The translations under genes and the position numbers were made by a program. Below, piece by piece: positions 2,990 through 19,475 of a stretch of DNA of 25,106 nt. Every line of letters begins with the position of its first letter. Within the stretch, counting starts at the first letter, position 1. A model generated the notes under the pieces. The model did no database searches. It was not told where the DNA came from and saw only the letters and a program-made list of their open reading frames with translations. The DNA comes from a virus, in the IMG/VR virus record IMGVR_UViG_3300046008_000449, positions 1 through 25,106 of that record, one strand, 5' to 3'.

Positions 2990-3019
2990 ATATGTCTCTA
3001 TTAGTTAATCAATAAAGAC

Positions 3020-3049
3020 ATTATATTATAACTAATAATTAAAGTAAAC
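3020..3049 (-). promoter_or_regulatory. Early-type promoter
   Basis: GTTTAC (3049-3044), 18 bp, TATAAT (3025-3020), starting just after the TAG stop of the preceding gene. Nine bases of the spacer (TATTAGTTA) are complementary to TAACTAATA next to the SD of the gene it drives, a shorter case of the pattern seen at 9025-9091 and 19170-19230. Confidence 0.85.
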
Positions 3050-3051
3050 AA

Positions 3052-3627
3052 CTATTTTATTGCTTTTGCTAATTCCGGTAAAATAGTTACTTTATTTGTT
3101 AAAAGTTTAATTGGTTGATTCCATTTTCCTGGTGGTGTCTTAATTTTTTCTGCTTTATTATTAATTACTATTGGTGGATTCTTAATATTTTTTAATAAAG
3201 CAGCTTCTAATATAGCTTCGTTAATATTATTTGTTAATACTACCATAATAAAATGAAGATATAAGTCAGGAAATGCCAATAAGACTTCTTGTGAGTGTCT
3301 TGCGGCAGGACTTCTATTTCCATCATTCTGAATAAGATCACCTTTATTTGTGGCATGTCTGCCTTTCGAACCACTTGTAAAATTACCTATCTTAATAAAG
3401 GTGTGTTCTTTAAACTTTACTGTTCTCGCAAACTTATTTAATTTAGTAACAACACATTCTCTATCAGTTACTTTTACATTAAATTTTTCTGGTCTATCTG
3501 AGAAAATATAAAACAATACATAGGAACCTTTTTTTTCAATAGGTTCCATATTATTTGTATAGATTGGCTCATATACAATTGTATTTTTCTGAATTATTGC
3601 TTTTTGAGCAGGAGTGATAATAGCCAT
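3052..3627 (-). CDS. Unknown protein, tandem paralogue B (191 aa)
   Basis: Paralogue of 2432-2989, sharing the YVLFYIFS strand, the FIKIGNFTSG motif and the EVLLAFPDLYLHFIMVVLT block. Its ATG shares a base with the stop of the PARP-like gene (TAATG), so it is translated with that gene and may be its partner, regulator or substrate; this link rests on position only. The C-terminal third is Lys/Pro-rich and probably flexible. I do not recognise the fold. Confidence 0.75.
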   Translation of the reverse strand: MAIITPAQKAIIQKNTIVYEPIYTNNMEPIEKKGSYVLFYIFSDRPEKFNVKVTDRECVVTKLNKFARTVKFKEHTFIKIGNFTSGSKGRHATNKGDLIQNDGNRSPAARHSQEVLLAFPDLYLHFIMVVLTNNINEAILEAALLKNIKNPPIVINNKAEKIKTPPGKWNQPIKLLTNKVTILPELAKAIK

Positions 3628-6600
3628 TACTTACCAATCAATGTTAAGAATTTCTCTAATTCAACACGGTCATCTAAGAACTGCTCTGTTGAACTTACAA
3701 CAAATGCCAATGACTCAGCAGTATCAGAAATTACAACTACAGGACCTTGACCAGATAAGTCAACTCGAACATTCTTAAGGTTCAATTTCTTAAATTCCTC
3801 GAATGGTACCTTCTTATCTTTACCAACCGGTATTGAACCATCAATAAAGACATAAGAGATTGCATGAGTATTTGCCACAGAAGAAGCCTTTTTGAATGCT
3901 TTAAAGTTTTTAATTGGTGTTACTACAGACTCTGTCAAACCTGCTGCTTTTTTCATTTGTCGCATTTGAGCACCAGAAATAATCTCAACTTCAAATGCCT
4001 TCTTAATTCTCAGTTGTGAATTTGGTGTAAAGACACACCATTCAGGAGATCTAGTTCTACCATCATTAACACCAGCAGAACTATAATCTTCTTTTGAACC
4101 TAAGTTAGCATCCATCTCAAAGATATAACCTCTAGTACCAGTACCACGAGAATAGCCAGCATCACCAACATATTGACCTACTTTATCTAGTACATTTGAG
4201 AAGTAAATACCATCACCAAGCATACGACCAACAACAAGACCATCACCTGCATTAATAACCTTGAAGCCATAGCGTAAGATCATTGAAGCACCAATTGAAC
4301 CTGTACCATGGAAAGCAGGTGAAATTACTTCTGCTGTTGGATGTGCTTCGTTCCAAGCCTTAACTGAGTCAATCTGTGTAGGAATTGCAACATCATAAGC
4401 CTTATTAAAAATAAGTGCAATATCACCATGGTTGTATCTATTAAATGCATCATATTCAATTGACATTGCAACTAAATCTTGATGATCCTTAACAATAGGA
4501 GTAACATTCAACTTCTTAATTTCTGGTGGAGGTGGTAAGTTAGAAGTAAGTGATTTTAATGTCTCTGCTTTCTTACTATTATAGCCAGGAAGTGATGCTT
4601 CTGAAACAGGAATATCATTATACTTTAATACTTCAACTAAACGCTTATGGTCCATTTTAGCATAAGGTTTAATTGGTGAATCTGAATTAAAGATTTCATT
4701 CATTGCTATACCGGCAGTTGCAATCTGAGCCAAATGTTTAATAGTTGCTCGTTTAAGTCCAGGTCCCATTAAAGCATAAGCTTTTTCGGCTTTTGTTGGA
4801 TTAACATCATGAATTGTATAGATAGTATCTGTTAGTGCATTTGCTAATTGTTTTCTTGATGAAGCATCTTCTGCTTTAAACTCAAGCACTTCAGAAGCAA
4901 CATGTGTCATTCTCATCAATGTTGATTCAGATATCCATTCATCTAAGTTCTTATTTTTATCATTAATACGTGACAAATAATTAACCATTCTCATTGCAGT
5001 TGGAGTAAAAAGATTATAGCTAATGAACTTCTCAAAGTCTTCTGGAGTACCCACAAGCTCAATAGCAGTAAAAGCAATTGAAGGAGATATGTTACTATCT
5101 ACAAATGAAATTTTATCAACTAAGATTTTAGAAAGAATTTCTTTCATTTTAGGTTTAAAGAATTCCATTCTTGAGCTTTTTTCGTCTGTGCTGCCACTAT
5201 CAACAAAACCAGTCATATTATCTAGAGTTAAACTCTTAAGCATCTCAATAGGCAATGTTAAGACTAATGTTGGATTATAACGTAATAGTTGTCTTGAAAG
5301 TGCTGGGTATGAATCTAATAATGAAGCCTGTTCTTCTAATGTAAATACACCAAAGTATTTTGCAATAAATGCTGCAACTGTAGAATGATGATCAAGATTA
5401 ACTCCATCAGCTCTAGCTTTTGCGAGATAAAGATCTAAGAATTTCTTATCAAAAGGAATATTAAATTTAGTATTTGAAGCTTCAGCAACAATTCTAAGAC
5501 CATCTCTATCATCTAATAATTTAGTAAAGAATGTTGAAAGTGTATTTTCGTCAATACCTACAAGTTTATAGATTTCATTAATGAATGGTACTGTATAATT
5601 TCTATCAACAACAAAACTATTGATATCTGTTTCTCTTAATGCTTGAAATACTACAGTCTTAACTGCAGTACCAAGTGAGCCTGTAAAACCATCTATTTTT
5701 CTAAGTTTGCCAACGCTATTATAATCACCTTGTACTTTTAAAATTTGCTTTTTGATTTCAGGTAGACAACCTTTAACTATTTCAGTAAGTTCTTGTTCTG
5801 ATTTAGGATCAAAGAAGACACTTCTCTCAGTAAAGTCATTATAGTCATAGAAAATCCAAGCAGCAAATAGATCTTTATCTTCTGAATTAGTTTTAAGTAA
5901 CTCTAAGACTCTTGGTAAGATTTGTTTTTGGTGGACATCAGATAATTGTTGAAGTTTATATACAAAGTCTTTATATGAATTTTGATTTTTAAATCTATTT
6001 TCTAATAGTAAATCAAGTACACTGTCTGCTGATGTTGACCAACCTTTAGCTTTTAAGATTGATTCTGCTGATGTAATAACAGCCCAGTCTGCATCTGATG
6101 CAACACCTTTAGTTAAAATTTGTGCTGCTGGAGTACTTTGAACTACAAAACCAAATCTATTAAATGCCCTAGTTGCATTTTCAATCCAGATTGAATTCGC
6201 TGAAATAGAATAGATAATAGATTTAAGAGGAGATGAGTTATCTTGTTCTGCTCTTGAATATGGTGCTTGAACAAGACTAGTTGATTGCATCCATTCAGCT
6301 AATGCATTATTATACTTTTCATATTTTCTCTTAATATCATTAAAAGCAATTAGAGTCATTGGTGCTTTTTCAATATCAAGTCTAAGTTGTTTAGTAAACT
6401 CATTCTGTACAACTTCTCTTGCAGTAGCACCAAATGAATATGAAGCATTCTTAAATGTATTTTTAGTTGGAGGTAATTGTTCAACTATTGCTAATGTCTC
6501 AAGCGGATATACAGCAAGAAGTTTATTAATAATAATTCTAACAAAATTAGTATAAGAACTATTATTCTCCTTAGCTATTTTTAATACAGTTAAACTGTTT

Positions 6601-7487
6601 AGTGTAAGTTTAAAATCACTTACATTTGCCTCAAAGAACTTCATGAACTCTAGAATTGCAAATGATGTATTATATTCTTTACATAGTTTAGTTAGTGCTG
6701 CTTTACCATCTACATTCCAAGCCTTCTTATAGAAGTCAAGGTCGACTACTTTAGCCTGAACTACCGGAGGTGTTGGCGCAACTTTAGCAGCAACTGGATC
6801 TACCGTAGTAGTTTGTTGAGTTACTGGATCAACTTTCTTAGTTGGTTGTGTTGCTCGTTGTAATGCTGCAGGTACAGCTGGTACAGAACCAACATCAGGA
6901 ATATTCTTAAATGCAGAATATGCATGATGACACATATCTCTAAAGATACCAACAGACGGTGCATATTGTTTTAATGCTTTTAGATAAAAGATAACTTTTG
7001 TAAATTGAGCCAGTGTAGACTTACCGGACTCAAAGTCTTCGAATGCTGCCAAGATTGCTGGTGATGGTTTACATGCAGATGTTTTAACTTCTGTTGCCCA
7101 ACCTCGAATGATTTTCTCATCAAAATTAGATGAGTTAATAGATTTGTTCTTTAATAACACTAAGAACTTAGTAAGATTTGTTGCTGTAGTAGTTGTAAGT
7201 CCACCTGCTTCAGTCATCAATTTAACTGATAACGACATATCAGTATTTGTATCTGTAATGTTACTTAATTGATGTTTTTGGTCTGTAGAGAAATAAGCAA
7301 CAATTGGTGATTTACCTTGGAAGAAAGACATAATGCCAATCATACCAAAGAAGTTAAACATGAAGTAATTAGCAATATTAGTTTTATCTTTTAAGAAAGC
7401 ATCTTTTTCTGCCTGAGTTGTATAGACAGTACCTTCATTAAGTGGTAAGTTGTGATAATCATTAAAATTCATAGGGTTTTGATCCAT
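3627..7487 (-). CDS. Giant protein with PARP-like ADP-ribosyltransferase domain (1286 aa)
   Basis: Transfers ADP-ribose from NAD+ if active. The catalytic domain lies at about 990-1170 and shows the H-Y-E triad of PARPs: His in FHGTGSIGASMILRYGF (H1060), Tyr in LGDGIYFSNVLDKVGQY (Y1095) and Glu in SPEWCVF (E1149). The preceding IALIFNKAYDV strand and order match the PARP fold. Residues about 1-195 form an N-terminal domain, about 198-247 a Pro/Thr/Val-rich linker, and about 250-960 a long mostly helical region I do not recognise. A short SAP-like stretch (HKRLVEVLKYNDI) and PPPP precede the catalytic domain; about 115 residues follow it. Two starts are possible: ATG 7487, or ATG 7472, which forms an ATGA overlap with the upstream nucleotidyltransferase stop. 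Neither has a strong SD, so coupling is likely. Targets, and mono- versus poly-ADP-ribosylation, cannot be told. Confidence 0.85.
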   Translation of the reverse strand: MDQNPMNFNDYHNLPLNEGTVYTTQAEKDAFLKDKTNIANYFMFNFFGMIGIMSFFQGKSPIVAYFSTDQKHQLSNITDTNTDMSLSVKLMTEAGGLTTTTATNLTKFLVLLKNKSINSSNFDEKIIRGWATEVKTSACKPSPAILAAFEDFESGKSTLAQFTKVIFYLKALKQYAPSVGIFRDMCHHAYSAFKNIPDVGSVPAVPAALQRATQPTKKVDPVTQQTTTVDPVAAKVAPTPPVVQAKVVDLDFYKKAWNVDGKAALTKLCKEYNTSFAILEFMKFFEANVSDFKLTLNSLTVLKIAKENNSSYTNFVRIIINKLLAVYPLETLAIVEQLPPTKNTFKNASYSFGATAREVVQNEFTKQLRLDIEKAPMTLIAFNDIKRKYEKYNNALAEWMQSTSLVQAPYSRAEQDNSSPLKSIIYSISANSIWIENATRAFNRFGFVVQSTPAAQILTKGVASDADWAVITSAESILKAKGWSTSADSVLDLLLENRFKNQNSYKDFVYKLQQLSDVHQKQILPRVLELLKTNSEDKDLFAAWIFYDYNDFTERSVFFDPKSEQELTEIVKGCLPEIKKQILKVQGDYNSVGKLRKIDGFTGSLGTAVKTVVFQALRETDINSFVVDRNYTVPFINEIYKLVGIDENTLSTFFTKLLDDRDGLRIVAEASNTKFNIPFDKKFLDLYLAKARADGVNLDHHSTVAAFIAKYFGVFTLEEQASLLDSYPALSRQLLRYNPTLVLTLPIEMLKSLTLDNMTGFVDSGSTDEKSSRMEFFKPKMKEILSKILVDKISFVDSNISPSIAFTAIELVGTPEDFEKFISYNLFTPTAMRMVNYLSRINDKNKNLDEWISESTLMRMTHVASEVLEFKAEDASSRKQLANALTDTIYTIHDVNPTKAEKAYALMGPGLKRATIKHLAQIATAGIAMNEIFNSDSPIKPYAKMDHKRLVEVLKYNDIPVSEASLPGYNSKKAETLKSLTSNLPPPPEIKKLNVTPIVKDHQDLVAMSIEYDAFNRYNHGDIALIFNKAYDVAIPTQIDSVKAWNEAHPTAEVISPAFHGTGSIGASMILRYGFKVINAGDGLVVGRMLGDGIYFSNVLDKVGQYVGDAGYSRGTGTRGYIFEMDANLGSKEDYSSAGVNDGRTRSPEWCVFTPNSQLRIKKAFEVEIISGAQMRQMKKAAGLTESVVTPIKNFKAFKKASSVANTHAISYVFIDGSIPVGKDKKVPFEEFKKLNLKNVRVDLSGQGPVVVISDTAESLAFVVSSTEQFLDDRVELEKFLTLIGK

Positions 7488-8041
7488 TGCTTAAAAGATT
7501 CAACTAAAGATAAGCCTGCACGTGTTGCATCAAAGACTTGTTTTGCTTCAGTTGTTGTTATTCTTGTTGGTAAATTCTTACTAAAATTTATAAAGTCATT
7601 TGCTGTGGCATACTCACGCATTTTAGTACCAGAGATACCTTCAGTACGAGCACCAGATGACTTAGTTGTGATTGAATTGAATGTATAATTCTTCTCGTTA
7701 CCATTATATTTCTTGTAGTCAGTGCCTTCTTCGTCTCTATCATCACCAACCATGATTGTCACATCTGTGTAACCACTTAAATAGAGTTTACGAAGAGCAG
7801 AGAACATGTGGATCACTTCTTTGTTTGGATCCAACTTAACAGACTTAGGAAATAGTCTATGGAGAATTTTAGATTTAATGTTATAATCTAGTGGATTCTT
7901 TTTCTTATCTTGAGAGTGAGAAAGAAAAACAAATGGTTCTGCACCAATTCTTTTTGCCTCTATCTCAACCTGTTTAATATTCTCTTCATGACCTACAGTG
8001 AACGGATTCATGCGGCCAAATGTGACAACGGCTTTTTTCAT
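7469..8041 (-). CDS. HxGH-type nucleotidyltransferase (cytidylyltransferase/NMNAT-like)
   Basis: Member of the adenylyl/cytidylyl-transferase superfamily that joins a nucleotide to a phosphorylated substrate. GRMNPFTVGHEENI near the N-terminus (T15-V-G-H18) is the (H/T)xGH signature, and ISGTKMR (137-143) is the second ATP-binding motif. A central GDDRD segment follows a beta strand. Substrate is not certain: NMN or nicotinate mononucleotide, a cytidylyl acceptor or another phosphate ester are all possible. The start is at 8041: GGAAGA precedes it and ATGA overlaps the primase stop; the ATG at 8053 lies in the SD. It overlaps the PARP-like gene downstream, an enzyme that consumes NAD+, so a role in NAD+ supply is attractive but unproven. 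Confidence 0.85.
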   Translation of the reverse strand: MKKAVVTFGRMNPFTVGHEENIKQVEIEAKRIGAEPFVFLSHSQDKKKNPLDYNIKSKILHRLFPKSVKLDPNKEVIHMFSALRKLYLSGYTDVTIMVGDDRDEEGTDYKKYNGNEKNYTFNSITTKSSGARTEGISGTKMREYATANDFINFSKNLPTRITTTEAKQVFDATRAGLSLVESFKQWIKTL

Positions 8042-9045
8042 ATTTTCTTCCATTGAGCTAATTTCATTTTTGCATTGAGTCCTGAATACTGATTTTGATC
8101 AACTAACATTTGAACATCATGTCCAGCTAAGACCATATCATTTAAGTCTTTTTCTTGTATGTAATCAGGAAAGATAACTACTTTATATCCTTTATTTATT
8201 GCATTTGTAATTTTAGAGACTATGACTGGTGATCGTGGTTCATTATCAAACACTAACACTAAATCACAATCATTGAGTTTTATGTTTGCTCTTTCTAGTG
8301 CAGAGTCTGCTGTGGCAACTGCATTACTAATGAAACAACTATCAAATGGACCTTCTGTAACAAATACTTGTTTTGATCTGTCTAATCTATTTACACCAAA
8401 TAGTTTGACATCAGAGTCATCAAAGCCAATAGTTAAGTATCGCCACTTTTTATCTTTAGAGAAAGTTCTTATTTGAATGAAGTTACACGTACCATCAACT
8501 GTAACAAATGGAATAACGATACCTTCAATTTTAGGAATAGACAAGGTATAGTCAAGCCCGTAGAATTCAAAAAGGTCCATAGCCAAACTGCTAGCATCAT
8601 TAGTATAACCAAAGATTGAGACATCAGGGATTTTCCTATCAGTTAAAAATTTAAGAGCGTGTTCTGGAAGCTTCCAGTTAATATGTTGTTCCCACTTAGA
8701 CTTTAGGACTGTCTTAGTTTTCATATAAGACAAATCTTCTTTTGGTTTCTGTGTTGTGTTTAATGCAAATCTTTCAAGGTTGTATTCTTGATATAGACTC
8801 GGAACAAACTTCTTAAGGAAACCACCAAGAGGGAGTGAGATGCCACAGTTGTGGCAGAAGTAGAAAATGTTATTCGATTTCTCAAAGAACCAACCACGAG
8901 CTTTTGTTTCTGATTTTGCAGAGTCATTACAAGCAATACAACGACAGTTAAAAGACTCTGGTCCCTTTTGAGTAAATCTAGGGAGATGAGAACTTAATCT
9001 CTTGACATAATTGATCTGAGCAAATAATGGTAATTCGTTCGACAT
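8038..9045 (-). CDS. 61: DNA primase, gp61-type
   Basis: Makes RNA primers for lagging-strand synthesis with the replicative helicase. The N-terminal zinc-binding part has CIAC (36-39) and CHNC (64-67). A TOPRIM core follows, with FVTEGPFDS (the conserved Glu) and the acidic VFDNEPRS and DYIQEKDLNDM motifs. At 335 residues it is close to T4 gp61. SD AGGAATT precedes ATG 9045. Its own promoter (9099-9070) starts the primase-nucleotidyltransferase-PARP operon. The first codons form an inverted repeat with that promoter's spacer. Confidence 0.9.
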   Translation of the reverse strand: MSNELPLFAQINYVKRLSSHLPRFTQKGPESFNCRCIACNDSAKSETKARGWFFEKSNNIFYFCHNCGISLPLGGFLKKFVPSLYQEYNLERFALNTTQKPKEDLSYMKTKTVLKSKWEQHINWKLPEHALKFLTDRKIPDVSIFGYTNDASSLAMDLFEFYGLDYTLSIPKIEGIVIPFVTVDGTCNFIQIRTFSKDKKWRYLTIGFDDSDVKLFGVNRLDRSKQVFVTEGPFDSCFISNAVATADSALERANIKLNDCDLVLVFDNEPRSPVIVSKITNAINKGYKVVIFPDYIQEKDLNDMVLAGHDVQMLVDQNQYSGLNAKMKLAQWKKI

Positions 9046-9091
9046 AGCAATTCCTATTAATATAGAAACATTATATCACGAATTACCATTA
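9025..9091. repeat. 14-bp inverted repeat: primase start codons versus promoter spacer
   Basis: TAATGGTAATTCGT (9025-9038, inside codons 3-7 of primase) is the exact complement of ACGAATTACCATTA (9078-9091, inside the promoter spacer). The -10 box lies in the loop. A transcript coming from upstream can fold both arms over the primase start region; one starting at the local promoter lacks the upstream arm. Confidence 0.75.
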
Positions 9092-9099
9092 ATGTAAAC
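9070..9099 (-). promoter_or_regulatory. Early-type promoter for primase operon
   Basis: GTTTAC (9099-9094), 18 bp, TATAAT (9075-9070), immediately after the stop of the gp62-like gene. The spacer is one arm of the inverted repeat 9025-9091. Confidence 0.85.
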
Positions 9100-9999: not shown

Positions 10000-10935
10000 C
10001 TATTTAAAATTTAATGACATCATTGCTTCAACAGAAAATGCAGCCATTTGGATCTCTGGGTCAGCAGATGCCATACAACGGTTCTGATAAGTTGCAATTA
10101 ATAGAACTGCATCTGGAATACTCGTTGGTTCAAGAACATCATACATATTATCATACACAGCCCTAAAGATTGTATGTACATCTTGATTAACCATTGTCTC
10201 AACAATCCATTGACGAGCACCCTTAAAGTTCTTTGTCTTTAAGAAACCAACAAAATCATTAACATCAATATCATATGAAACAATGCTAGATTCTGTAATT
10301 TCACCTGCAACCGAAGCAACACGTTGACATTCATTAATAATTCTACGGAAGTCTGGGAAGTGATGTTTTACAATTTCACCAACAACTGCTTGGTCAAACT
10401 TAACATTCTCTGCAGTTAAAATATTAATAATTCTTTTGAATAGTTTCTTAACAACATCTATTTTATCTTCATTTTTAATACTAAAATCAAACACAGCACA
10501 ACGAGAATGAAGTGGACTAATAATCTTATTAGGGAAGTTGCAAGTAAAGACAAAACGTGTGGTTTTTGAGAAGTCCTCCATTGCAGCACGCATACCTTTT
10601 TGTAAGTCCGGTGTTGCATTATCAAACTCATCTAATATGACCATTTTCATATTGCCATCAATAGATGCTGATGTAGCAAATGCTGTAATTTCATTTCTTA
10701 ATACTTCAATACCACGAGAATTTGATGCATTCATAATCATCATATCATAATTCATTGCCTTAGCAAGTGCTTTAGCAATTGTGGTTTTACCAATACCAGC
10801 AGGACCATGTAACATTAGATGAGGCATCTCACCAGAAGCAACAAATGACTCAAATTCTTTTTGAGCAAGTGGTGGCAAAACACAGTCTGCAATTTCTTGT
10901 GGGCGGTATTTTTCAACCCAAAGTGTCTGTGACAT
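10000..10935 (-). CDS. 44: Clamp loader large subunit, gp44-like AAA+ ATPase
   Basis: ATP-driven clamp loader that opens and places the sliding clamp on primed DNA. Shows the RFC/gp44 signature LWVEKYRPQ at the N-terminus, Walker A GPAGIGKTT (44-52), Walker B VILDEFD (99-105), sensor-1 FTCNFPNKI and the arginine finger SRC (144-146). At 311 residues it is close to T4 gp44 (319). SD GGAGATTTAA precedes ATG 10935. Its gp62 partner follows after one unknown gene; no gp45 clamp gene was found in the window. Confidence 0.93.
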   Translation of the reverse strand: MSQTLWVEKYRPQEIADCVLPPLAQKEFESFVASGEMPHLMLHGPAGIGKTTIAKALAKAMNYDMMIMNASNSRGIEVLRNEITAFATSASIDGNMKMVILDEFDNATPDLQKGMRAAMEDFSKTTRFVFTCNFPNKIISPLHSRCAVFDFSIKNEDKIDVVKKLFKRIINILTAENVKFDQAVVGEIVKHHFPDFRRIINECQRVASVAGEITESSIVSYDIDVNDFVGFLKTKNFKGARQWIVETMVNQDVHTIFRAVYDNMYDVLEPTSIPDAVLLIATYQNRCMASADPEIQMAAFSVEAMMSLNFK

Positions 10936-11767: not shown

Positions 11768-12325
11768 ATGGAATTTATTCCTACATATCTTTGCATCAAA
11801 CAACATGCCATCACAGGCAAACTATATCTCTGTAAAACAACTAAGAAAGATCCAATAAAATATAAAGGTTCTGGTAAACATTGGAAATCTCATATAAAGA
11901 AGCACGGTAAAGAACATGTGGTTACTTTATGGTATCAATTATATGATAATGTATTTGATCTAGTTGCAGACTCACTTGGTATGTCTATAGCATTTAATAT
12001 TATTAAATCTGATTCATGGTTAAATCTTATTTTTGAATCTGGTTTACACGGTGGTAACAGAGGGAGAAATTCAAATGAAATTAATTCAAAGATAAGAAAT
12101 TCACTTCTTGGTCACAAATTATCAGAAGAAACAAAATTAAAAATAAGTAAAACTTTAACCGGACAACCATCTAAAAATAAAGGTAAACATTTATCAATAG
12201 ATACAAAGAATAAACTTTCTCTTGCATTAAAGGGAAAAATACACCCAAGAATTATCTGCGAAATATGTGGAGATAATATAAGTGAATTTATGAAAACAAG
12301 ACATTTCAATACTTTCCATCTTTAG
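11768..12325 (+). CDS. Homing endonuclease, degenerate GIY-YIG with NUMOD3 repeats
   Basis: Free-standing mobile endonuclease gene, the only convincing plus-strand gene here. The N-terminal part (TYLCIKQHAITGKLYLCKTT.KDP.KYKGSGKHWKSHIKKHG, read in parts) matches the phage GIY-YIG-like group, though the usual YFGKTT is LYLCKTT. LLGHKLSEETKLKISKTLTG and a second copy near 150 are NUMOD3 DNA-binding repeats. The C-terminus has a zinc-finger-like C164-x2-C167...H179-x4-H184. SD GAGGAG precedes ATG 11768. The substituted Gly leaves open whether the nuclease is active. It converges with, and overlaps by 20 bases, the FmdB-like gene on the other strand. Confidence 0.85.
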   Translation: MEFIPTYLCIKQHAITGKLYLCKTTKKDPIKYKGSGKHWKSHIKKHGKEHVVTLWYQLYDNVFDLVADSLGMSIAFNIIKSDSWLNLIFESGLHGGNRGRNSNEINSKIRNSLLGHKLSEETKLKISKTLTGQPSKNKGKHLSIDTKNKLSLALKGKIHPRIICEICGDNISEFMKTRHFNTFHL

Positions 12326-16543: not shown

Positions 16544-16573
16544 ATTATAATCTATCTAGTATTAAATGTAAAC
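16544..16573 (-). promoter_or_regulatory. Early-type promoter for the lysis operon
   Basis: GTTTAC (16573-16568), 18 bp, TATAAT (16549-16544). The surrounding ~56 bp are identical to the promoter at 18749-18778. Confidence 0.88.
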
Positions 16574-18411: not shown

Positions 18412-18507
18412 TTACTCCCATTCCAAGTATTTTGCAAGAACTTCACCGACAACAAAGACTAAACTAACAGCAAACAAACCAAACATCAAAATCAATACAT
18501 TTTCCAT
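18412..18507 (-). CDS. Single-span membrane peptide (31 aa)
   Basis: Starts MENVLILMFGLFAVSLVFVV and ends KYLEWE: one transmembrane helix with a short charged tail. A strong SD (GGAGGAG, eight bases before ATG 18507) and a TAATG overlap with the previous stop argue that it is translated. One of a series of tiny membrane proteins in the right half of the window. Confidence 0.6.
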   Translation of the reverse strand: MENVLILMFGLFAVSLVFVVGEVLAKYLEWE

Positions 18508-18710
18508 TATTGAACTCCTCCGATTAACCAAGTAACATTTGTACAAAATGGTAATCTTACTTTGGTATTCATTGAGATAACTTCGATTGAAAGATTTTTG
18601 AAGTTGTCAATAACTTGATTGACAACTTCAAATGTCTGAGATTTGATGATTTTTCCTTCAGATGAAACATCCATCTTCAAGAAACCTTCTGATAATTTTT
18701 TAACTTCCAT
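18507..18710 (-). CDS. Protein of unknown function (67 aa)
   Basis: Starts MEVKKLSEGFLKMDVSSEGK, predicted alpha/beta and soluble. GGAGATTAAC-ATG sets the start at 18710, as the earlier ATG is part of the SD. First gene behind the promoter 18778-18749 and head of the operon that ends with RNA ligase and perhaps thioredoxin. Confidence 0.65.
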   Translation of the reverse strand: MEVKKLSEGFLKMDVSSEGKIIKSQTFEVVNQVIDNFKNLSIEVISMNTKVRLPFCTNVTWLIGGVQ

Positions 18711-18748
18711 GTTAATCTCCATAAAAGGGTTTATTTAATTGATAAGAC

Positions 18749-18778
18749 ATTATAATCTATCTAGTATTAAATGTAAAC
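18749..18778 (-). promoter_or_regulatory. Early-type promoter for the RNA ligase operon
   Basis: GTTTAC (18778-18773), 18 bp, TATAAT (18754-18749). Identical over ~56 bp to the promoter at 16544-16573, spacer included. Confidence 0.88.
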
Positions 18779-18780
18779 AA

Positions 18781-19170
18781 CTATTTAACTTTCCATGCGA
18801 ATTTAATATGAGAACCCATTTTAACTTTCCATGAGTCATTTACAACACCATCGACTACCGCAAATGCATGACCACGTTTGCAAGCGATGTAAGTACCTTT
18901 AGGATTATTCTTTAAGAATGTGGCAAGAGTGCCGAGTGAAGCTTTACCTTTAGTAGGCTTAAGTTTCTTTTGAGTTTTGATTTTCTTTGCAACAAAACCT
19001 ACAAAGTTGTATGTCGTGCCACGGTCTTTTCTACCATGTGCCTTTAACTTTGCATGAGCTTCTTTGTATGGGATTTCACAGGCGATTGCAACTGCTCTTA
19101 CTGCACAATCATTATGTTCATGATGAAAACCATCTTTAGTTTTACCACCATCCGTTATATTATACATCAT
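18781..19170 (-). CDS. Papain-like fold protein (129 aa), possible cysteine protease
   Basis: NDCAVRAVAIACEIPYKEAH places a Cys (C22) at the start of a helix. KGTYIACKRGHAFAVVDGVV then places a His (H101) in a strand pair, followed by ND (111-112). That Cys-His-Asn/Asp order is what papain-like and C39-like proteins show, and NDCAVRA starts are common in phage proteins of this sort. Activity is unproven. ATGATG gives two possible starts, 19170 or 19167, behind CGGAGATTA. The SD is one arm of the inverted repeat 19170-19230. Confidence 0.65.
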   Translation of the reverse strand: MMYNITDGGKTKDGFHHEHNDCAVRAVAIACEIPYKEAHAKLKAHGRKDRGTTYNFVGFVAKKIKTQKKLKPTKGKASLGTLATFLKNNPKGTYIACKRGHAFAVVDGVVNDSWKVKMGSHIKFAWKVK

Positions 19171-19230
19171 TAATCTCCGTTAAGTTGGGTTATTTGATTT
19201 GATAAGTCATTATAACATAACGGAGATTAA
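19170..19230. repeat. 13-bp inverted repeat: SD region versus promoter spacer
   Basis: TTAATCTCCGTTA (19170-19182, complement of the SD TAACGGAGATTAA) and TAACGGAGATTAA (19218-19230, inside the promoter spacer) are perfect complements. Read-through mRNA could fold the anti-SD onto the SD; mRNA from the local promoter would start downstream of the anti-SD and stay open. Confidence 0.8.
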
Positions 19231-19238
19231 TTGTAAAC
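19209..19238 (-). promoter_or_regulatory. Early-type promoter for the papain-like gene
   Basis: GTTTAC (19238-19233), 18 bp, TATAAT (19214-19209). The spacer contains an anti-SD arm complementary to its own gene's ribosome binding site. Confidence 0.87.
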
Positions 19239-19244
19239 AACTAT

Positions 19245-19475
19245 TTAAGCATAAGTGTCAATAATATTTCCTAAATGTTTTTCTGAGATCTTTTGAGCTC
19301 TCACATTATTCTCGTGTTTAGTTTGTAGTTCTTTAATCTCTTCAACTTTGTTCTGAGCAGCTCTTGCAATTTCTAGTCTCATTTCAATTCGAGCAAGATC
19401 TTTCTTATAATCTTGATTAACTTGATATTGGTGAGTGGTCCAAATCTTCATTGCTTCTTTAGCAAATCCCATCAT
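19245..19475 (-). CDS. Coiled-coil protein of unknown function (76 aa)
   Basis: Almost entirely helical, strongly charged (KDLARIEMRLEIARAAQNKV). A likely coiled coil from about 20 to 65. MM start; the first ATG (19475) overlaps the preceding stop as ATGA and follows AGAGAGGTGG. No family recognised. Confidence 0.65.
   Translation of the reverse strand: MMGFAKEAMKIWTTHQYQVNQDYKKDLARIEMRLEIARAAQNKVEEIKELQTKHENNVRAQKISEKHLGNIIDTYA

Follow-up and report, generated by a model that had tools for sequence, protein, structure and literature searches.

Fold-back inhibition of the IS10 transposase depends on the origin of the RNA: RNA started outside hides the ribosome binding site (RBS), and RNA started inside does not. 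The arrangement described below is similar in that the RBS is hidden only in externally started RNA. It differs in that IS10 silences a mobile element against outside promoters, with its arm near the element end and not in a promoter spacer. T4-type phages reportedly carry a further relevant element, the PeSL (promoter-early stem-loop), a composite promoter-terminator cassette in which terminators are said to mediate gene shuffling.

Sequestration of the RBS in read-through RNA is established for late genes of phage T4, and translation of gene e is reduced approximately 100-fold (PMC3014915 section 29; PMC2988022). In these late-gene hairpins (e, soc, 49 and I-TevI, as well as segB and Aeh1 mobE), long RNA started upstream folds so that a stem covers the RBS, and a promoter in or after the 5' arm gives rise to RNA that lacks the arm and is translated (PMC3014915 section 29; PMC2988022). 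For early genes, GenBank record X04567 labels inverted repeats B, C and D, at the promoters of T4 ipII, denV and regB, 'pot. transcription terminator'. These are the same objects as the stems considered here: their arms flank the -10 box, and C' and D' overlap with the sequence annotated as the RBS of denV and of regB. The record gives no RBS-hiding role, however, and generality is not assessed there.

Two promoters in the viral DNA analyzed here have the SD/start region in a stable predicted helix of the longer RNA, and the 5' arm between the -35 and -10 boxes, so that locally started RNA, from its inferred start site, would lack the arm. Because these promoters (TTTACA-N17-TATAAT) are of the early type, they are treated as a variant, not a member, of the T4-type read-through RBS hairpins. 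The T4 late genes are silenced early; here the promoters are early and sigma70-type and hold the arm between their -35 and -10 boxes. The timing would be reversed, with genes on early and off in later read-through RNA. In our best reading, the RBS-hiding logic known from T4 late genes (e, I-TevI) is here built into early promoters. No description of such an early-promoter arrangement was found in the literature searched, a search that did not extend to the PeSL papers, and an earlier description is possible.

Spacer arms at two early promoters

The window, meaning the whole 25.1-kb viral fragment (25,106 nt) that was analyzed, carries nearly every gene on its minus strand. Predicted T4-type proteins (a gp44-like clamp loader, a DNA primase, an RNA ligase and a RegA-like translational regulator encoded at 344-760) identify the source as a distant T4-like phage, and no near relative was found in the phage collection. 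A strong early-type promoter consensus, AGTTG-TTTACW-N17-TATAATG-WCTTATCAA, is common to the family. A scan with this consensus identified a 39-kb contig, G001, which has the same promoters and is almost indistinguishable from the window in tetranucleotide profile (r 0.98-0.99) but shares zero genes with it. G001 may be another portion of the same genome or of a sister genome.

One member of the promoter family precedes a gene for a putative papain-like protein. Its minus-strand layout is TTTACA-ATTAATCTCCGTTATGT-TATAAT-GACTTATCAAATCAAATAACCCAACTTAACGGAGATTAATGATG, with the following features:

19245..19475, minus strand: upstream co-directional gene, the putative source of read-through (open reading frame list and sequence)
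19232..19237, minus strand: -35 box TTTACA, from the consensus scan; same box across the promoter family
19215..19231, minus strand: promoter spacer ATTAATCTCCGTTATGT, 17 nt, from sequence
19218..19231, minus strand: 5' arm (anti-SD) ATTAATCTCCGTTA inside the spacer; perfect 14-nt inverted repeat
19209..19214, minus strand: -10 box TATAAT, from the consensus scan
19169..19182, minus strand: 3' arm TAACGGAGATTAAT, which contains the SD (GGAG) and touches the first start codon; from inverted repeat and fold
18781..19170, minus strand: papain-like gene, 129 aa, PHROG 3754

A preliminary description of this DNA had noted a perfect 13-base complement between spacer and SD region. The complement is real and is actually 14 bases long, ATTAATCTCCGTTA (19231-19218) being the exact reverse complement of TAACGGAGATTAAT (19182-19169); extended, the helix covers 18 nt (94%, a single mismatch). 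Approximately 5 of the 14 paired bases (TTAAT/ATTAA) are supplied by the promoter and SD consensus. With both arms the predicted fold is -18 kcal/mol, and loss of the 5' arm leaves -1.9. The predicted cost of opening the ribosome footprint (-20 to +18) is 18.8 kcal/mol in read-through RNA as compared to 3.7 in local RNA. Read-through RNA is presumably abundant at this promoter: the upstream gene's stop codon precedes the -35 box by 8 nt, and nothing resembling a terminator was seen between the two.

Residues Cys22, His101 and Asp107 of the gene product are conserved and a papain-like fold is possible for this PHROG 3754 protein; the predicted structure has a mean pLDDT of 68 and a best Foldseek E of 0.24, with weak matches that include cysteine proteases. 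Upstream regions of distant homologs, inspected by eye, contained nothing comparable.

The second promoter is that of the DNA primase:

9070..9098, minus strand: primase promoter TTTACA-TTAATGGTAATTCGTGA-TATAAT
9078..9091, minus strand: 5' arm TAATGGTAATTCGT in the spacer; perfect 14-nt inverted repeat
9025..9038, minus strand: 3' arm ACGAATTACCATTA, within the primase coding sequence at nt +8 to +21
8038..9045, minus strand: DNA primase gene (PHROG 47, E 2.5e-64)

This locus had been named as a second case of SD complementarity. Here 14 bases match perfectly (9091-9078 with 9038-9025), yet they pair with codons 3-7 and not with the SD. The predicted fold is -27.1 kcal/mol with both arms (z -6.2) and -5.2 without the 5' arm, and the footprint opening cost is 25.8 kcal/mol in read-through RNA as compared to 2.9 in local RNA. 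One consideration argues against a regulatory role at this gene: primase, unlike RegB, should be needed throughout replication, and the benefit of silencing it in read-through RNA is harder to see.

A third case had been claimed at another promoter:

2999..3048, minus strand: 9-mer TATTAGTTA / TAACTAATA at promoter 3020-3049, unsupported

This 9-base match is weak and near chance (0.018 by column resampling, described below), so that two of the three proposed cases, at the papain-like and primase genes, stand. The 3020-3049 spacer helix was rejected as a candidate: it is absent from the minimum-energy fold, and the leader self-folds in both transcripts.

Complementarity against swapped and resampled spacers

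Promoters and leaders recur as repeated cassettes in this phage, which include TTAAT behind the -35 box and, at the SD, GGAGATTAA. This is important to note because plain shuffling overstates the case when these elements belong to repeated cassettes; spacer swaps and column resampling were therefore used as nulls. The promoter-to-start cassettes are scattered over the window and G001, are approximately 77–88% identical across 80–95 nt, and resemble shuffling cassettes. Two window promoters, at 16544-16572 and 18749-18777, have identical spacers, TTTAATACTAGATAGAT.

Shuffled spacers never reproduced the match at the papain-like gene promoter (0/2,000). For column resampling, spacers were drawn column-wise from the family's other promoters with the shared TTTAAT prefix retained. 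Neither 14-mer was equaled (0/60,000 each). Three perfect inverted repeats of at least 14 nt (loop up to 70) are present in the window and two of them are these promoter-to-start pairs; four Markov simulations of 64 kb contained zero perfect inverted repeats of at least 14 nt.

For the swap null, spacers were exchanged among 26 promoters of the window, G001 and a further contig, L054. Summed complementarity was 185 as compared to 147 expected (0/20,000), and the excess persisted without the two best promoters (0/20,000). A direct-repeat control on the 26 promoters gave p 0.76. Reversed and complemented non-complementary controls gave p of approximately 0.01–0.02, and a small share of the swap excess may be a composition effect. 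Spacer-to-RBS helices were likewise in excess over spacer swaps in the window phage (p 0.0025; direct controls null). The count of spacer-to-start complementarity that had been proposed for all early promoters thus yielded an excess over swaps, but the effect belongs to a minority, about 4 of the 26 promoters. The mean cost of opening the RBS across the window phage family did not differ significantly from that with swapped spacers (p 0.34), and a systematic effect across all of these promoters was rejected on mean accessibility.

A 10-mer at G001 35281 was equaled in 58 of 60,000 column-resampled spacers; its spacer places TCTCC opposite the SD, as at the papain-like gene promoter. A blind scan of viral contigs for TCTCC in promoter-like spacers gave no further long match among the 80 loci listed, and the matches listed were mostly intragenic. 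Also in G001, at 10299-10345, the spacer, -10 box and leader form a single stem of approximately 22 bp with a tiny loop; this stem contains the SD (GAGG) yet ends GGCTTTT and is therefore terminator-like too.

A search of the window against Rfam returned zero matches. No closely related contigs were found for the papain-like, primase, clamp-loader or RNA-ligase proteins, and no orthologous promoters close enough for a covariation test of the two window cases.

Several other features of the window were observed. The strongest tight hairpin (18592-18637; a 20-nt inverted repeat with 15 perfect pairs and a 6-nt loop) is within a 71-aa open reading frame, 18507-18722, and has no U-tract after it. 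A perfect 12-nt inverted repeat at 775-818, a promoter-linked dyad, spans a weak promoter-like site preceding the RegA-like gene. In mid-window just one gene, 11768-12325, is clearly on the plus strand; it has a NUMOD3 motif, as do homing endonucleases. Near residues 1058-1107, a 1286-aa protein (3627-7487) weakly matches the PARP catalytic domain, below the cutoff (E 0.0086), and it is possibly an injected phage ADP-ribosyltransferase.

Early promoters of T4 and its relatives

Spacer-to-RBS helices exceeded those of swapped spacers in T4 (p<1e-4) and RB69 (p<1e-4), and direct-repeat controls were null. In both phages the excess was on the RBS and leader, with none on the coding sequence. Four genomes added later, with regB removed, gave p<1e-4 (Moon), 0.0019 (UTK0003), 0.02 (JS10) and a marginal 0.06 (Q7622); these p-values assume independent promoters within a genome, and the genomes are mutually related and not independent replicates. 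RB49 showed no genome-wide spacer-to-RBS excess; its best matches are terminator-like, e.g. AAACGGGG...CCCCGTTTT. Acinetobacter phage 133 was left out of the count: a looser promoter set gave p of approximately 0.01, but the stricter set consists of one promoter.

Of 29 T4 early promoters, 11 add more than 8 kcal/mol to the predicted cost of opening the RBS, a result seen in 0/5,000 swaps. Strong SD-type cases in T4 include regB (CAGTTAAGAGGAGA against TTTCCTCTTGACTG), alc, alt.-3 and the promoter at 65412 preceding denV, and ipII has a leader-type stem at its own promoter. The SD-type helices are mostly 10–14 bp long.

These stems could instead be transcription terminators that overlap the promoter and stop upstream RNA, with SD pairing as a by-product. 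The X04567 labels agree with this, as do the terminator-like RB49 matches and the GGCTTTT end of the G001 10299 stem. However, a U-tract (at least 5 T in the next 8 nt) follows only 1 of 32 SD-type helices, and the tails of the two window cases, GATGTATA and TTTGCTCA, have none. Because U-tracts do not follow, the SD-type helices are unlikely to be intrinsic terminators. An SD fit is not required of terminators, yet the excess sits on the RBS. We consider termination an unlikely explanation overall. The comparison with PeSLs is similar. In PeSLs, as here, a stem-loop overlaps or adjoins a strong early promoter of sigma70 type, and the unit recurs in the genome, as the window's promoter-to-start cassettes do; but PeSLs are said to be terminators and the SD-type stems here lack U-tracts.

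Processing by nuclease was also weighed, with the stem as an RNase III-type site or as a shield of GGAG against the RegB endonuclease. Some stems are long, approximately 22 bp at G001 10299 and 14+6 bp at the primase promoter. Helices of 10–14 bp, as in most SD-type cases, are short for an RNase III substrate. RegB targets GGAG in SDs, and structure in the RNA inhibits its cleavage (PMC3014915), but shielding of GGAG leaves codon pairing at primase and at regB of phage TG1 unexplained. A nuclease signal is accordingly quite improbable. Least credible is a DNA operator, in which the dyad would bind a promoter regulator. The arms do flank the -10 box, and a few promoters have shorter dyads inside the spacer; however, arm sequence is promoter-specific and follows the local RBS, and arm spacing is variable. 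A common operator was rejected, the arms being different at each promoter.

regB orthologs were inspected in 17 phages. The spacer pairs with the SD in T4, RB69, mar005P1, Moon, JS10, Q7622 and UTK0003. In Pet-CM3-4, Ent31 and PKO111 just 5–7 SD pairs are present, plus a leader stem. Occlusion occurs by other pairings in TG1, where the spacer pairs with the first codons, and in SP18 and SP1, where it pairs with the start codon. Four of the 17 loci (avDM5, UP87, Potts1 and RB49) have no clear case. Among six SD-type sequences, 93% of helix cells are paired as compared to 47–57% when the arms are slid, although the 93% is biased, as these sequences were picked for possessing the helix; the informative part is the double changes, on both sides, at 5 of 12 pairs. 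MAFFT alignment of whole regB promoters lost the SD register; for the count of pairs the arms were trimmed and connected through an artificial A10 linker. From one genus to another, the regB helix is re-formed from different bases.

These data also bear on a mutational origin, in which replication by template switching (quasi-palindrome correction) copies the leader into the unconstrained spacer as its reverse complement and leaves functionless perfect repeats. No other part of the promoter is as free in sequence as the spacer, correction would also yield matched changes in both arms, and the papain-like gene promoter differs from related cassettes at just 4–5 bases or so. Such a process does not readily account for an excess in T4 and RB69 that is on the RBS and leader and absent from coding sequence, for occlusion of the regB start via differing pairings per genus, or for the rarity of perfect repeats of at least 14 nt elsewhere in the window. 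Template switching is therefore also held to be unlikely.

A possible read-through lock within the promoter

The reading that we consider probable is a cis-acting read-through lock within the early promoter, which would tie translation to the gene's own promoter. The -35/-10 spacer, sequence-free for RNA polymerase, would bear the reverse complement of the RBS or first codons. RNA entering from upstream would have both arms and fold into a stem that hides these sites, whereas RNA started locally, approximately 6–7 nt past the -10 box, would lack the 5' arm and be translated. Translation of the gene would then track its own early promoter and stop at promoter shut-off, although later transcripts cross the gene. 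The sequences, the statistics, the regB compensatory changes across genera and the predicted fold energies are established here; that the promoters fire as drawn, with starts 6–7 nt past the -10 box, and that read-through RNA is abundant and poorly translated, we infer.

The preliminary description had proposed that a read-through transcript hides the SD and that a local one lacks the anti-SD. This fits the fold energies and is strongly supported by the genome-wide excess in T4, RB69, Moon, UTK0003 and JS10 and by the regB changes. It needs amendment in that the primase case would block first codons, that a minority of window promoters is involved and that the effect on translation is a prediction. 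Whether spacer anti-RBS arms at a sizeable minority of early promoters let transcript origin decide translation in T4-type phages generally is, in our estimate, an even question.

T4 early promoters are shut off within minutes by a process described as 'not completely understood', and regB requires tight control (PMC3014915). T4 early transcripts run on into downstream genes (PMC2988021). How early T4 protein synthesis halts even as later transcripts cross the early genes is only partly understood, and RegB explains part of the early mRNA loss. If true, the lock would help account for early phage genes remaining off later, and in a general form it would make the closing of an early promoter end protein production as well for genes under tight control (regB, alc). 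It would tie translation to transcript origin without a protein or extra DNA. It would also be a second, RNA-level constraint on a supposedly free spacer, which bears on promoter prediction and on the design of insulated expression cassettes.

Other structures were observed in early-promoter spacers. Leader-type stems, in which the spacer pairs with the leader near the -10 box, are present at many early promoters of T4 and RB69 (for example GATAGGACT-ATGTTATAGT-AGTCCTATC in RB69) and are significant in T4 (p<1e-4) and Q7622. At AF158101 7185-7214 and its counterparts in RB69, JS10 and Q7622, the spacer is itself a dyad that enters the -10 box (for example ACTCTTGGGACCAGAGT-ATAAT), a form that recurs in several T4-type genomes.
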